From: Halorubrum xinjiangense
GTDB lineage: Archaea > Halobacteriota > Halobacteria > Halobacteriales > Haloferacaceae
DNA: 64,000 bases
Assembly (NCBI RefSeq): GCF_900102375.1
Contig: NZ_FNBO01000001.1
Coordinates: 186,001 to 250,000, forward strand
Direction: 5' to 3'
The notes under the pieces were generated by a model. The model was given only the letters and a program-made list of their open reading frames with translations, was not told where the DNA came from and did not search any database. Shown here piece by piece: positions 3,781-53,804 of the stretch (its first letter is position 1; each line of letters starts with the position of its first letter). The translations under genes and the position numbers were made by a program.

Positions 3781-4177
3781 TTATAAATAACTGGCTGCGG
3801 ATTGACCGAGAACACCGCCAAGGTCCCAGCCGTTCGCTTATAAATAGTTGACAACGGATCGGCGGCAAACACCTCCAAAGCCCCAGCCGCGAGGACTCGC
3901 GCGGCTTGCTGCGCGCCTCGCTCAGTCGCTGGCTCCTTCGCTGCGGTGCTTCCGTCGCCGTGCTTCGTCCTCGCGGCTGCCCCTTTGAGTCCCGCCCCGC
4001 ACAGCACCGCGCCTCACGCCTCCCCAGCCTCGTCGGTGGTCCTCCGCTTCGCTCCGGACAACCGACTCCAGCGAGGGACCGAAGGTCCCTCTGGCAGCCG
4101 GCGCGTAGCGCCGGCGACCTCGCGCGTGCTGACTCGCGGCCGCCGAGGGCGGCCGCTCGCAGGCACGCGCCACCGCA
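3781..4177 (+). ncRNA. Dispersed structured repeat, copy A (candidate noncoding RNA with tandem promoters)
   Basis: Two 57-bp units begin with TTATAAATA at 3781 and 3838; the body follows. Helix I pairs CAGCCGCGAGGAC (3884-3896) with GTCCTCGCGGCTG (3967-3979). It is preceded by CTCCAAAG and followed by CTTTGAG, which pair across a CCC/CCC internal loop. A conserved linker follows (about 3980-4031), then helix II (GTCGG 4032-4036 with CCGAC 4062-4066), extra hairpins near 4075-4115, helix III (GCGGCCGCC 4136-4144 with GGCGGCCGC 4148-4156) and the conserved end GGCACGCGCCACCGC. TTTATAAATAG recurs at 4184-4194. A TATA box at 3838 would place a transcript start near 3865-3870, just before the first helix. 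It lies between divergent genes (lipoprotein and mutL). Whether it acts as RNA is inferred. Confidence 0.7.
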
Positions 4178-17101: not shown

Positions 17102-17618
17102 TTATAGGTCGTTGTTCGCGGAGCGGCGATGAACTCCGCCGGATCCGCGATCGCCCACTTATAAATGGTTGTTAACGAACCGGCGGCAGACACCGCCAAA
17201 GCCCCAGCCGCTCGCTTATAAATGGCTGACAGCCGGACAGCGGTGGACACTTCCAAAGCCCCAGCCGCGAGGGCGGCGTACGCTCGCTGTCGCCCGAAAA
17301 TCTTCGATTTTCGGGATGACGAGAGAGCTTCGCTCTCTCGAACCACGCTCCTTGGTCGCTCACTCCGTTCGCTCCCTGCGGTGCTTGCGTCGTCATCAGA
17401 ACGCGAAGCGTTCTGATTGGCTCACGAGAGCTCCGCTCTCGTGAACGCCTACGCCGCCCTCGCGACTGCCCCTTTGAGTCCCGCCCCGCACAGCACCGCA
17501 GCCTCACGCCTCCCCAGCCTCGTCGGCCGCCCTCCGCTTCGCTCCGGGCGGCCGACTCCCTCGCACGCGCTCCTCGCGGCCGTTTAAAAACGGCTGCTCG
17601 GAGGCGCGCGCCACCGCA
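17102..17618 (+). ncRNA. Dispersed structured repeat, copy B
   Basis: Three phased 57-bp units start at 17102 (degenerate TTATAGGTC), 17159 and 17216 (TTATAAATG), then the longest body of the family. Helix I pairs 17262-17280 with 17450-17468 (19 positions, one C-A mismatch). Its large loop contains a near-perfect hairpin around CGAAAATC...GATTTTCG, a GAGAGAGC hairpin (about 17320-17340), an AGAACGC hairpin (about 17398-17416) and a CACGAGAGC hairpin (about 17424-17444). Helix II is an 11-bp perfect stem (17522-17532 with 17546-17556). Helix III is GCGGCCGTTT with AAACGGCTGC. The conserved end is at 17604-17618, and TTTATAAATAG follows at 17643-17653. It lies between convergent genes, so these TATA-like boxes cannot be promoters of flanking genes. 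Confidence 0.72.
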
Positions 17619-20522: not shown

Positions 20523-20934
20523 TGTCTGTCTGGTTGGAACGGCACAACCGCAACGTGACCGCGACTCCGCGCGACGCGGCTACGGATCGCTCGCGGACCG
20601 AGCGTGTCCGACCGGGCGGCCCGCGCGAGCGAGCCGACCGACCGCGACGCCGGAGGCGTCGGCGCACTGCTACATTCCCAAGCCGCGGGCGAAAGGGCCC
20701 CGGCGAGTCGGATCTGCAGCTGTGCTGTTCCCGTATGCGAGGTCGCCGTCGGGGTTCTTAAGCGTGTTCTTGTGGGTCGGAGCGGCGAGACCGTCCTCGC
20801 GCTCGGCCCGCTTGGTTCGTTCCGCGTCGTCCGGGGTTTCGTTCCGCTTGGTTGCGGATTTCGTTCCGCGCGAGTTCTCCACAGAAGGGAGGATTTAGGT
20901 GGGTCGTCGGTATCGGGAGGTTTGTGAACGATCG
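20523..20934. other. Divergent spacer between rps15 and nhaC-like gene with 22-bp-spaced direct repeats
   Basis: 412 bp without a convincing gene. TTCGTTCCGC occurs three times at exactly 22-bp spacing (20816, 20838, 20860), two helical turns, so a protein could bind all three on one face. A TATA-like ATTTAGG lies at 20892-20898, about 40 bp before the antiporter ATG. A short hairpin GACGCC...GGCGTC lies near 20647-20662. Open frames here are Arg-rich and not protein-like. Confidence 0.45.
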
Positions 20935-22811: not shown

Positions 22812-23306
22812 TTATAAATAGCTGTCGGCGGATCGGCGGTGAATATCTCTAATTTCTCGGATTCTCGTTTATAAATGATTAACTGCGGATCGGCGGCAAA
22901 CACCTCCAAAGCCCCAGCCGCTCGGCGATACGTGATCGACTATTCCGCGGTGACCGCTTCCAAAGCCTCAGCCGCGAGGGCGGCGCACGCTCGCTGTCGC
23001 CCGAAAATCTTTGATTTTCGGGATGACGAGAGAGCTTTGCTCTCTCGGACCACGCGCTTCAGTCGCTCGCGTCGCTCGCTCCTTCCAGTGCTTACATCGC
23101 CTGCGCCGCCCTCGCGGCTGCCCGTTTGAGTCCCACCCCGTACCGCACAACACCGCACCTCACCCCTCCCCAACCTCGTCGGCCTCCCTCCGGTCGGCCG
23201 ACTCCAGCGAGGGACCAGAGGTCCCTCTGGCAGCCGGCGCGTCGCGCCGGCGACCTCGCGCGTGCGATTCGCGCCCTCCGGGCGCTCATCGGCACGCGCC
23301 ACCGCA
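22812..23306 (+). ncRNA. Dispersed structured repeat, copy C
   Basis: Three phased 57-bp units start at 22812 (TTATAAATA), 22869 (TTATAAATG) and 22926 (degenerate CGATACGTG). The body has the best helix I of the family: 22969-22987 pairs perfectly with 23102-23120 over 19 bp. Within the loop are hairpins CGAAAATC/GATTTTCG and GAGAGAGC/GCTCTCTC. Helix II is GTCGGCC with GGCCGAC (about 23178-23202). Then come hairpins around AGGGACC...GGTCCCT and CCGGCGCG...CGCCGG, helix III GCGCCC/GGGCGC (about 23271-23285), and the conserved end GGCACGCGCCACCGC. Same strand as both neighbours. Confidence 0.7.
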
Positions 23307-29963: not shown

Positions 29964-30062
29964 GTGGATCACCGGAGTCAGTACGCGTGGATCACCGGAG
30001 TCAGTACGCGTGGATCACCGGAGTCAGTACGCGTGGATCACCGGAGTCAGTACGTGTGGATT
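29964..30062. repeat. 23-bp tandem repeat beginning inside the 3' end of the zinc-ribbon gene
   Basis: GTGGATCACCGGAGTCAGTA and three following bases (CGC) repeat with period 23 from 29964, 29987, 30010 and 30033, and a fifth start at 30056 within the gene (GTGGATTAC). Read on the minus strand, the unit contains the last codons (ATCCACACGTAC) and stop (TGA) of the zinc-ribbon gene. Only the first stop ends the protein, so the array is 3'-untranslated sequence. Uniform, no variable spacers, so not CRISPR. Confidence 0.85.
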
Positions 30063-42522: not shown

Positions 42523-42888
42523 TGCGGTGGCGCGTGCCTGCGAGCGGCCGCCCTCGGCGGCCGCGAGTCAGCACGCGCGAGGGAGTCGGGCGCGACGAGG
42601 GCGACCATAGGGAGCCCGAAGACGCGCCCGACGAGGCTGGGGAGGCGTGAGGCGCGGTGCGGTCGCGGTCGGGTGGGACTCAAAGGGGCAGCCGCGAGGA
42701 CGAAGCACGCCGACGTAAGCACTGGAAGGAGCGAGCAACGCGAGCGACTGAAGCGCGCAACGAGGCGCGCGAATCGTCGCGGCTGGGGCTTTGGAAGTGA
42801 TCTTCGCCGATCTGTCAGCACTCAGTTATAAGCGAGCGGCTGGGGCTTTGGCGGTGTTCGCCGCGATACCACCAAACACTATTTATAA
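42523..42888 (-). ncRNA. Dispersed structured repeat, copy D
   Basis: On the minus strand, TATA-like TTATAAATA begins at 42888 and TTATAACTG at 42831 (57 bp apart), then the body. Helix I pairs CAGCCGCGACGA (about 42784-42773) with TCGTCCTCGCGGCTG (about 42711-42697), with a two-base bulge. Helix II is perfect over 10 bp: GTCGGGCGCG with CGCGCCCGAC (42623-42632 with 42585-42594). Helix III is GCGGCCGCC/GGCGGCCGC (about 42564-42544). The conserved end GGCACGCGCCACCGC lies at 42539-42524. TATA-like elements flank the far side (42503-42513 and about 42472-42480). It lies antisense to both flanking genes. Confidence 0.7.
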
Positions 42889-43953: not shown

Positions 43954-44825
43954 TGGACCTCGCGCGGCCCGACCTCCGCCCGGACCCGTCGCTGTCGCGC
44001 GACGAGATGGAGGCCCTCCAGCGCGAGATCGCCGCGGCCGCGACGTTCGACGACGAGCACGCGCTCGACCCGGCCGCCGTCGCGGTCGAGGAGGCGGCCT
44101 CGCTCGCGGACGGCCTCCCGCCGGCGCGCGACGACGCGCAGGAGCAGCTGGGAACCGGCGCGGCCGGAGCGTCGACGGGCACGGCGGCCGACGCTGACGC
44201 GCCCACCGTCGTCGGCGTCGACCAGGCGTTCCTCACCGACCGCGGCGAGGACCGTCCCGACGCCGCCGTCTCCGCGGCGGTCGCGCTCCGCGGCGGAAGC
44301 GTGGTCGAGTACGCGAGCGCGACGACGCCGCTGTCGATCCCGTACATTCCGGGCCTGCTCGCGTTCCGAGAGGGGGAGCCGATCCTGGCCGCGCTCGACA
44401 CGCTCGACACCGAGCCCGACCTGCTGGTCTGTGACGGCTCCGGCCGGATCCACTTCCGGGAGGCCGGGCTCGCGACCCACGTCGGCGTCCTCCGCGACGT
44501 CCCGAGCGTCGGCGTCGCGAAGAGTCTCCTCTGTGGCGAGCCCGACGAGTCGACGGCCGAACGCCCCGAGGGCTGGCGGACGCCGGTCCGCGCCGACGAC
44601 GCGGTGACGACCGCCGAGCCGGGGACCGCCATCGGCCACGCGTTCCAGTCGCGCCAGTACCCGAACAGCAGACGGGTGAACCCCCTGTACGTCAGTCCCG
44701 GCCACCGCGTGTCCGCGGAGCGCGCGGTCGACCTCGTCGAAGCGCTGTGTGCGGGGTACAAGCTCCCTGAGCCGACCCGGCTCGCGGACGCCCACGCAGA
44801 GCGCGTGAAGCGGAACGCGGAGTGA
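43953..44825 (+). CDS. nfi: Endonuclease V
   Basis: 290 residues. Motifs of the family in order: VVGVDQAFL (metal Asp), PYIPGLLAFREGEP (Tyr/Pro wedge and Glu), LLVCDGSGRIHFREAGLATHVG (Asp), and NPLYVSPGHRVS (His). It nicks DNA (or RNA) near deaminated bases such as inosine. The N-terminal 70 residues include an Ala-rich stretch and an insert longer than usual. Start overlaps the rhomboid stop. Its final codons are copied in a 32-bp tandem repeat. Confidence 0.92.
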   Translation: MDLARPDLRPDPSLSRDEMEALQREIAAAATFDDEHALDPAAVAVEEAASLADGLPPARDDAQEQLGTGAAGASTGTAADADAPTVVGVDQAFLTDRGEDRPDAAVSAAVALRGGSVVEYASATTPLSIPYIPGLLAFREGEPILAALDTLDTEPDLLVCDGSGRIHFREAGLATHVGVLRDVPSVGVAKSLLCGEPDESTAERPEGWRTPVRADDAVTTAEPGTAIGHAFQSRQYPNSRRVNPLYVSPGHRVSAERAVDLVEALCAGYKLPEPTRLADAHAERVKRNAE

Positions 44826-44894
44826 GCACAGAGTGCGTGAAGCGGAACGCGGAGTGAGCACAGAGCGCGTGAAGCGGAACGCGGAACGACCGCG
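44799..44894. repeat. 32-bp tandem repeat spanning the endonuclease V stop codon
   Basis: Units starting GAGCGCGTGAAGCGGAACGC begin at 44799, 44831 and 44863 (period 32; the second has GAGTGCGTG). The first unit lies within the last codons of endonuclease V, its stop TGA at 44823-44825 included. The next ones are untranslated. Array shape parallels the 23-bp array at 29964-30062. Confidence 0.8.
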
Positions 44895-46647: not shown

Positions 46648-47133
46648 GAGGGAATCTCCGGCGGCGAATCAGCGGTGAACGTTTCCGAAGCCCCAGCCGC
46701 TCGGTTATAAATGACTGATGGTAGCTCGGCGGCGAACGCCTCCAAAGCCCCAGCCGCTCGGTTATAAATGACTGATGGTAGCTCGGCGGCGAACGCCTCC
46801 AAAGCCCCAGCCGCTCGGTTATAAATGACTGATGGTAGCTCGGCGGCGAACGCCTCCAAAGCCCCAGCCGCGACGACTCGCGCGGCTTGCTGCGCTCCTC
46901 AGTCGCTCGTTCCACTCGCTCCCTGCGGTGCTTACTGCGCCGGGCTTCGTCCTCGCGGCTGCCCCTTTGAGTCCCGCCCCGCCCAGTACCGCACAGCACA
47001 GCACAGCACCTCACGCCTCCCCAGCCTCGCCGTTCGCTCCGGGCTCTCTTCGGTCGCCCGTCGCTCACGGCGTCCCTCGCGCGTGCTCCTCGCGGCCGCC
47101 TTCGGCGGCCACTCGGAGGCACGCGCCACCGCA
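46648..47133 (+). ncRNA. Dispersed structured repeat, copy E, with perfect 57-bp tandem array
   Basis: TTATAAATG starts at 46705, 46762 and 46819, all 57 bp apart, with identical units; a degenerate unit lies at 46648. The body follows: helix I CAGCCGCGACGA (about 46866-46877) with TCGTCCTCGCGGCTG (about 46947-46961); the conserved CCTTTGAGTCCC block; helix II reduced to CGCCGT/ACGGCG; helix III GGCCGCC/GGCGGCC (about 47094-47110) and the end GGCACGCGCCACCGC. 57 bp is 19 codons, so the array makes a false repeated peptide in every frame. It lies between divergent genes. Confidence 0.72.
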
Positions 47134-53460: not shown

Positions 53461-53804
53461 GGCGGTGGCGCGTGCCTGCGAGCGGCCGGAGCGAAGCGGA
53501 GGCCGCGAGGAGCCCGCGCGAGGGAGTCGGTCGCCGAGCGAAGCGACGGCGACCGACGAGGCTGGGGAGGCGTGAGGTGCTGTCGCGGTGCTGTGGGCGG
53601 GACTCAAAGGGGCAGTCACGAGGCGGACGCAGGCGACGCAAGCACCGCAGGGAGCGAGTGAAACGAGCGACCGAGGAGCACAGCGAGCGTGCGTCCGCCT
53701 CGCGACTGGGGCTTTGGAGGTGTTCGTCGTCTTGTATTCAGCCATTTATAAACGAGCGGCCGGGATTCGGAGAAGTCCGCCGCAGGGCCGCGAACCGTTT
53801 ATAA
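53461..53804 (-). ncRNA. Dispersed structured repeat, copy F
   Basis: On the minus strand TTATAAACG at 53804 and TTATAAATG at 53751 lead two units (53 bp apart here). Helix I is 19 positions: 53708-53690 with 53631-53613, with one G-T wobble and a C-G to T-A compensated pair relative to copies A, C, D and E. Helix II GTCGGTCGCCG with CGGCGACCGAC (53557-53547 with 53536-53526) is perfect over 11 bp. Helix III GCGGCC/GGCCGC follows, then the end GGCACGCGCCACCGC, and TATA-like sequence at 53448-53457. It lies on the opposite strand to both neighbours. Confidence 0.7.

Follow-up and report, generated by a model that had tools for sequence, protein, structure and literature searches.

Haloquadratum walsbyi carries palindrome-associated transposable elements (PATEs), which are non-coding, occur many times per genome and are too short to encode a transposase (PMC3119063). 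PATEs contain palindromes that resemble those of IS605-type transposons, lack terminal inverted repeats and accommodate smaller insertions within the palindromes (PMC3119063). A 489-bp PATE of HRTV-DL1 is expressed in reverse (PMC10544981), and the class I intergenic repeats of halovirus HF2 comprise 58-bp promoter units that were all active in reporters (PMC8707807). Structured RNAs tied to haloarchaeal mobile elements are represented by the omega and sot RNAs of IS1341 elements (Rfam RF02656 and RF02657; names per PMC12558985), and REP/BIME palindromes with their RAYT transposases reach more than 100 intergenic palindromes per genome (PMC2817692, PMC3733652).

Here we describe a tandem array of 57-bp units in a 64,000-nucleotide stretch of Halorubrum xinjiangense DNA, hereafter the window, together with the hairpin element that the array flanks. 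The element shares with PATEs (PMC3119063) its non-coding and palindromic character, a length too small to encode a transposase, its presence in many copies per genome and the smaller insertions within its palindromes, but is distinguished by a single class-wide sequence core with tandem leaders, and no link to IS605-type transposons was found for it. The HRTV-DL1 PATE is likewise a Halorubrum intergenic repeat of similar length (PMC10544981), but the virus sequence lacks the core motif and its local similarity does not exceed that of shuffled sequence. The HF2 repeats share promoter-type units of similar size and a Halorubrum host (PMC8707807); their motifs differ (CTTTAAGT and the gamma motif), and they are dispersed single units rather than tandem hairpin flanks. 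As with REP/BIME, the copies number more than 100 intergenic palindromes per genome, although the element is much longer and modular, has a different foot sequence, and no dedicated RAYT was found beside its copies.

The 57-bp array and the element it flanks

Inspection of the array with Tandem Repeats Finder gives a period of 57 across 46672-46871, with 3.5 copies and 97% matches. Allowing at most one mismatch, there are 25 occurrences of TTATAAATG in the window, whereas shuffled sequence would yield 0.10; for the leader AAAGCCCCAGCCGC, with at most two mismatches, the corresponding values are 12 and 0.36. The tandem 57-bp units described in an earlier note on this DNA are thus present far above chance, although its observation as a whole is confirmed only in part. 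The features of this copy are as follows.

46648..46704, plus strand: outermost degenerate unit with leader GAAGCCCCAGCCGCTCGG and no TATA box, read directly from the sequence
46705..46761, plus strand: 57-bp unit 1, with TTATAAATG box, spacer and leader AACGCCTCCAAAGCCCCAGCCGCTCGG
46762..46818, plus strand: 57-bp unit 2, same as unit 1 (identity 1.0)
46819..46875, plus strand: 57-bp unit 3, the last, whose end enters the long helix I 5' arm (identity 0.947 to unit 2)
46858..46877, plus strand: AAAG outer-helix strand (46858-46861), unpaired CCC (46862-46864, minus-strand G-tract 4), then helix I 5' arm CAGCCGCGACGAC
46878..46948, minus strand: inner domain, a purine-rich rod on the minus strand with class-wide motifs CAAGCACCG ... 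GAGGAGCGCAGC
46949..46968, plus strand: helix I 3' arm (end CGCGGCTG), unpaired CCC (46962-46964, G-tract 3), then CTTT outer-helix strand
46958..46979, plus strand: core motif GCTGCCCCTTTGAGTCCCGCCC, in which CCC at 46973-46975 and 46977-46979 are minus-strand G-tracts 2 and 1
47000..47132, minus strand: 3' domain of variable hairpins and a terminal helix with end CACGCGCCACCGC

The box TTATAAATG stands exactly at 46705, 46762 and 46819, but it does not open every unit of the array, as had been proposed, since the outermost unit lacks it. The units had also been called identical. This holds for those at 46705 and 46762 (100%), while the unit at 46819 is only 95% identical because it enters the long arm of helix I at its final bases. 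The inner units repeat the 5' arm of helix I in part only, carrying AAAGCCC and 7 nt (CAGCCGC) of it rather than the whole arm. The array at 46705 was duplicated recently, its units still being 100% and 95% identical. Across the genome that holds the window (hereafter the own genome), unit identity is 0.76 within arrays versus 0.67 between arrays, and 68/78 adjacent leader pairs are exactly 57 bp apart. Each unit combines a spacer with a leader found throughout the class, which consists of AACACCTCC-AAAGCCCC and 7 nt of helix I, and in some Halorubrum the spacer includes TTATAAAT exactly 39 bp before AAAG.

Most leader spacings that depart from the modal 57 or 75 bp are divisible by 3, namely 48, 51, 54, 60, 66, 69 and 72, at loci of G000, other Halorubrum, G113 and G001. 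Slippage of CGG triplets perhaps accounts for them. They also suggested a coding repeat, which we rejected, as no single open frame runs through the units.

The window contains five further copies.

3781..4176, plus strand: copy A, boxes 3781/3838, leaders 3820 (degenerate)/3877, core 3976-3993
17102..17617, plus strand: copy B, boxes 17159/17216, leaders 17198/17255, core 17465-17482
22812..23305, plus strand: copy C, boxes 22812/22869, leaders 22908/22962 (54 bp), core 23117-23134
42524..42888, minus strand: copy E, boxes 42888/42831, leaders 42849/42792, core 42692-42675
53462..53804, minus strand: copy F, boxes 53804/53751, one leader 53715, core 53616-53599

The box pairs listed for copies A, B, C and E agree with those reported earlier, as does the 53-bp spacing of copy F. 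Two further positions reported as boxes need correction: 22926 has no box, reading CGATACGTG with a leader spacing of 54 bp, and 17102 reads TTATAGGTC. Recurrent hairpin modules are nested in the elements at preferred positions, for example at 17289-17340 and 4069-4118 of the window. They comprise GAAAATC/GATTTTC, and GAGGGACC/GGTCCCTC plus GCCGGCGCG/CGCGCCGGC, and resemble small mobile repeats in palindromes.

Elsewhere in the window, a 23-bp tandem repeat of GTGGATCACCGGAGTCAGTACGC (29964-30061; 4.3 copies, 98% identical) lies near a called gene on the minus strand, and a 32-bp tandem repeat (44797-44885; 2.8 copies, 96% identical) lies at and past the end of a called gene. At the gathering threshold, the only Rfam match in the window is the S15-Halobacteria ribosomal protein leader (20664-20734, minus strand; RF03143, 72 bits).

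A dispersed family across Halobacteria

Searches with the core GCTGCCCCTTTGAGTCCC, allowing at most two mismatches, return 155 occurrences in the own genome and none for reversed-pattern controls, and the leader occurs 263 times there versus 20 control matches. Among the matches listed for species genomes are Halorubrum, the uncultured archaeon A07HR67 and a single Halobellus. Within Halorubrum the element is present in 49/52 genomes, with up to 191 copies. When the variant CCCCTTTCAGTCCCACCC is included, the core is found in 311/391 Halobacteria genomes and 74/86 genera with almost no control matches, and beyond the class it occurs in 1/124 genomes of the phylum. Relatives reside on plasmids of Halobaculum, Halorubrum and Natrinema. 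Viral contigs yielded one match, and the element is essentially absent from the phage records searched, on which basis a virus-borne repeat was rejected.

Gene placement with a codon-usage gene caller located 178 elements, none of which (0/178) lies inside a called open reading frame. On these sequence grounds, the tandem units belong to a non-coding, intergenic, dispersed hairpin element found across Halobacteria. No covariance model of Rfam, including those of the omega and sot RNAs, gave a relevant match near the element even at a relaxed threshold. The PubMed Central literature, searched for the motif as text and for the element as topic, yielded no description.

Paired structure and the folding strand

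In plus sense, the core reads AAAG-CCC-[helix I arm ... arm]-CCC-CTTT-SAGT-CCC-R-CCC. The sequence of helix I varies freely, in step with its pairing partner. A class-wide alignment of 52 sequences predicts 28 pairs, of which 20 show double compensatory changes, a pattern of covariation expected of a structured RNA or single-stranded nucleic acid.

A functional strand is expected to tolerate G.U more than A.C mismatches. Counted on the plus strand over 262 distinct helices, helix I contains 82 A.C versus 32 G.T mismatches (p=3e-6), with ratios of 24:3 in the own genome, 13:0 in other families and 13:12 in other Halorubrum. The signal weakens on collapsing related copies: by distinct context the count becomes 47:28 (p=0.037), and under the most conservative collapse, by lineage, position and type, it becomes 31:23 (p=0.34). 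The 3' domain leans the same way (42:29), which is not significant. The excess of A.C over G.T on the plus strand therefore indicates that the opposite, minus strand probably folds. This assignment has moderate support and is partly shown. Predicted folding energy also favors the minus strand, in 149/149 cases, but this measure is confounded by G-richness and was set aside in favor of the mismatch count. A small GGYGAACRCC hairpin within the unit was uninformative as to strand.

Conserved G runs on the minus strand

Exactly three plus three unpaired C residues flank the base of helix I in 339/343 elements, and CCC-R-CCC is intact in 94-100% of elements per group. The search patterns used for Halorubrum, G113 and G153/4 left the last CCC free; there each of its bases is 94-100% conserved, and conservation falls beyond it. 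Adjacent helix pairs flip freely, and the unpaired C positions almost never turn complementary. Read on the minus strand, the core becomes GGG-Y-GGG-ACTSAAAG-GGG-[hairpin]-GGG-CTTT, that is to say, four near-invariant runs of at least three G. Such a layout suggests a quadruplex of three tiers flanked by two helices. The fourth G run and CTTT recur in every 57-bp unit. Recognition of the C/G runs by a protein is an alternative reading of the same conservation.

Spinach-type aptamers, which were selected in the laboratory, place a quadruplex between two helices. The duplex-flanked arrangement proposed here is the same, with the difference that the layout of the element is deduced from conservation alone.

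Proposed reading of the units

The reading we favor, with a probability of roughly 0.58, is that the units are the duplicated left flank of a class-wide element, to which one clade has added a TATA-like box, and that the minus strand of the element forms a hairpin-capped G-quadruplex. The functional constant of the unit would be the class-wide leader AACACCTC[C/G]AAAGCCCC with the opening bases of helix I. A TATA-like box would have been added in one Halorubrum lineage, at both ends of the element, and unit number would shift through local duplication and loss. As RNA or as single-stranded DNA, the minus strand would fold into an outer helix (AAAG/CTTT), a G-rich joint and helix I, where the four GGG runs could assemble into a quadruplex capped by the hairpin. 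Additional units would supply more fourth G runs and CTTT strands and, in this clade, perhaps promoters too. The more specific proposal of a Halobacteria-wide family of hairpin-capped G-quadruplexes, in which four minus-strand GGG runs join two helices and the 57-bp units, in arrays peculiar to certain lineages, serve as interchangeable spare fourth strands, is put forward tentatively.

Orthologous sites and the question of mobility

Two sites were compared across the genus, designated site B, that of copy B, and site D, that of the 57-bp array. At site B, relatives carry either the element or another arrangement, including short gaps of ~90-120 bp. At site D the element is common to one clade, and outgroups lack it, with gaps of 111-191 bp. 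Unit number at site D ranges from 1-5 among orthologues, five being found in L205; in L204 and L207 the element persists with a single unit that lacks a TATA box. Deletion scars that leave only leader and/or terminal-helix remnants are seen in L201 (site D) and L256. Whole hairpins are gained or lost among elements, and minimal copies consist of a hairpin and the core (L390). The inner helix I domain stands in the opposite orientation to its flanks in L252 (site B) and L205 (site D), as if flipped between inverted arms; therefore that part at least tolerates either orientation, a point against the favored reading.

Head-to-head pairs of cores with a loop of ~20-25 bp (CCCACCC ... GGGTGGG) are seen at loci L319, L397, L400 and L395 and in G420, G358 and G221, mostly in other haloarchaeal families, where such pairs lie ~40 bp apart.

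These dynamics bear on the best-surviving alternative, a non-autonomous palindromic element acting at the level of DNA only (PATE, MITE or REP-like) and mobilized by a transposase in trans. Helix I would then be a DNA hairpin, and the tandem leaders subterminal binding sites or by-products of duplication. High copy number, exclusively intergenic placement, patchy presence at orthologous sites, nested hairpin insertions and inverted inner domains are all consistent with such an element, as are the six Y1-transposase matches in the genome and the similar class in Haloquadratum, whose PATEs have repeats inserted in palindromes (PMC3119063). In contrast, visual comparison of occupied and empty orthologous sites shows neither terminal inverted repeats nor target-site duplications, with flanks too diverged to define ends. 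The motif is missing from all five Y1 loci examined in the own genome, and neither a transposase link nor a mobilizing enzyme was found. Near absence from viral contigs and phage records, and a class-wide sequence constancy that is high for a passive element, also argue against it. We consider an element of this kind a serious possibility, albeit one we lean against.

TATA-like boxes and promoter activity

Across 80 last units of the own genome, the TATA sequence begins 39 bp upstream of AAAG. Both it and the stretch GATCGGCGGCGAACACCTCC are clearly more conserved than the spacer, which for the box is what a genuine promoter would show and so counts against the favored reading. In this clade a conserved GAA lies ~30 nt past the start of the box, and archaeal promoter spacing would put the canonical start at this GAA. 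Promoter activity in this clade is therefore possible. The part of the earlier note that read the boxes as promoters thus stands insofar as the box is fixed at 39 bp and outdoes its spacer, but the promoter is not what defines the repeat.

The frequency of the 5' box falls from 55/63 in own last units to 47/93 in other Halorubrum, 1/29 in Halorubrum G001 and 0/~74 in other genera, such that TATA is not kept across lineages wherever the unit is kept. Tandem leaders without a box occur in G153/4 (57 bp), L391 (57 bp) and G113 (75 bp), and Halorubrum G001 has tandem leaders at 51/57 bp with TATA in 1/29. Since the leader is repeated elsewhere with no box, the box is an addition made in one clade to a leader that the whole class shares. 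The AACACC that precedes AAAG is conserved where the box is absent and therefore provides no evidence of an initiator. At its far end, too, the element can bear a TATA-like box, in 43/62 own copies, 54/92 of other Halorubrum, 1/29 of G001 and 1/~74 elsewhere. Far-end and 5' boxes are confined to the same lineages and vanish together.

The boxes might act as true promoters solely in this clade, recruited by an element whose structure serves another role; there would be several start sites, but competition between arms would not matter. A clade-limited TATA that is nonetheless conserved at a fixed spacing fits such recruitment. Against it, TATA-like boxes stand equally at the other end of the element, and boxless elements persist at the same locus. 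Recruitment as the explanation of the boxes is possible but less likely than not.

The earlier note went further, reasoning that if each box is a working plus-strand promoter, a copy has two to four start sites, with transcripts whose differing 5' arms could compete to form helix I. Several features would suit a transcript of this kind: the box lies 39 bp from AAAG, the purine start region (GAA) is conserved at a spacing canonical for archaea, TATA columns are more conserved than the spacer in 80 own elements, and a T-rich stretch lies past the far hairpin in many copies. As the meaning of the repeat, however, a promoter is contradicted by the lineages that have tandem leaders but no boxes, by boxless orthologues at the same site and by the far-end boxes. 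Competition between 5' arms is disfavored because the inner units hold 7 nt of the arm and because the mismatch bias favors the other strand. A plus-strand fold modeled from 46735 prefers the last arm (0.435 versus 0.117 and 0.05), in a fold that is itself poorly determined. Altogether, promoter competition is quite unlikely.

A transcription terminator or boundary between convergent genes is least probable of all, as the convergent gaps that would favor it are the commonest context (27/81 own and 45/97 other placed elements) but every gene orientation is found, including the divergent gap between two gene starts that holds the 57-bp array, and codirectional placements show no clear orientation preference. 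Viewed by eye, element orientation along contigs forms no obvious runs, a seeming one in G001 being an artifact.

Implications

We regard the class-wide element, rather than the 57-bp units alone, as the wider discovery. The family spans an entire archaeal class, and some genomes hold well above 100 copies; it matches no Rfam model, and no description of it turned up in PubMed Central. A caution follows for haloarchaeal sequences, in that a TATA-like box need not be a promoter, since here it is gained and lost in units that otherwise persist. The hosts of the putative quadruplex family have a potassium-rich cytoplasm, and cultivable Halorubrum strains would make the folding idea directly testable. 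If it is true, the element would provide a natural, widely conserved quadruplex-duplex joint in organisms with molar intracellular potassium.
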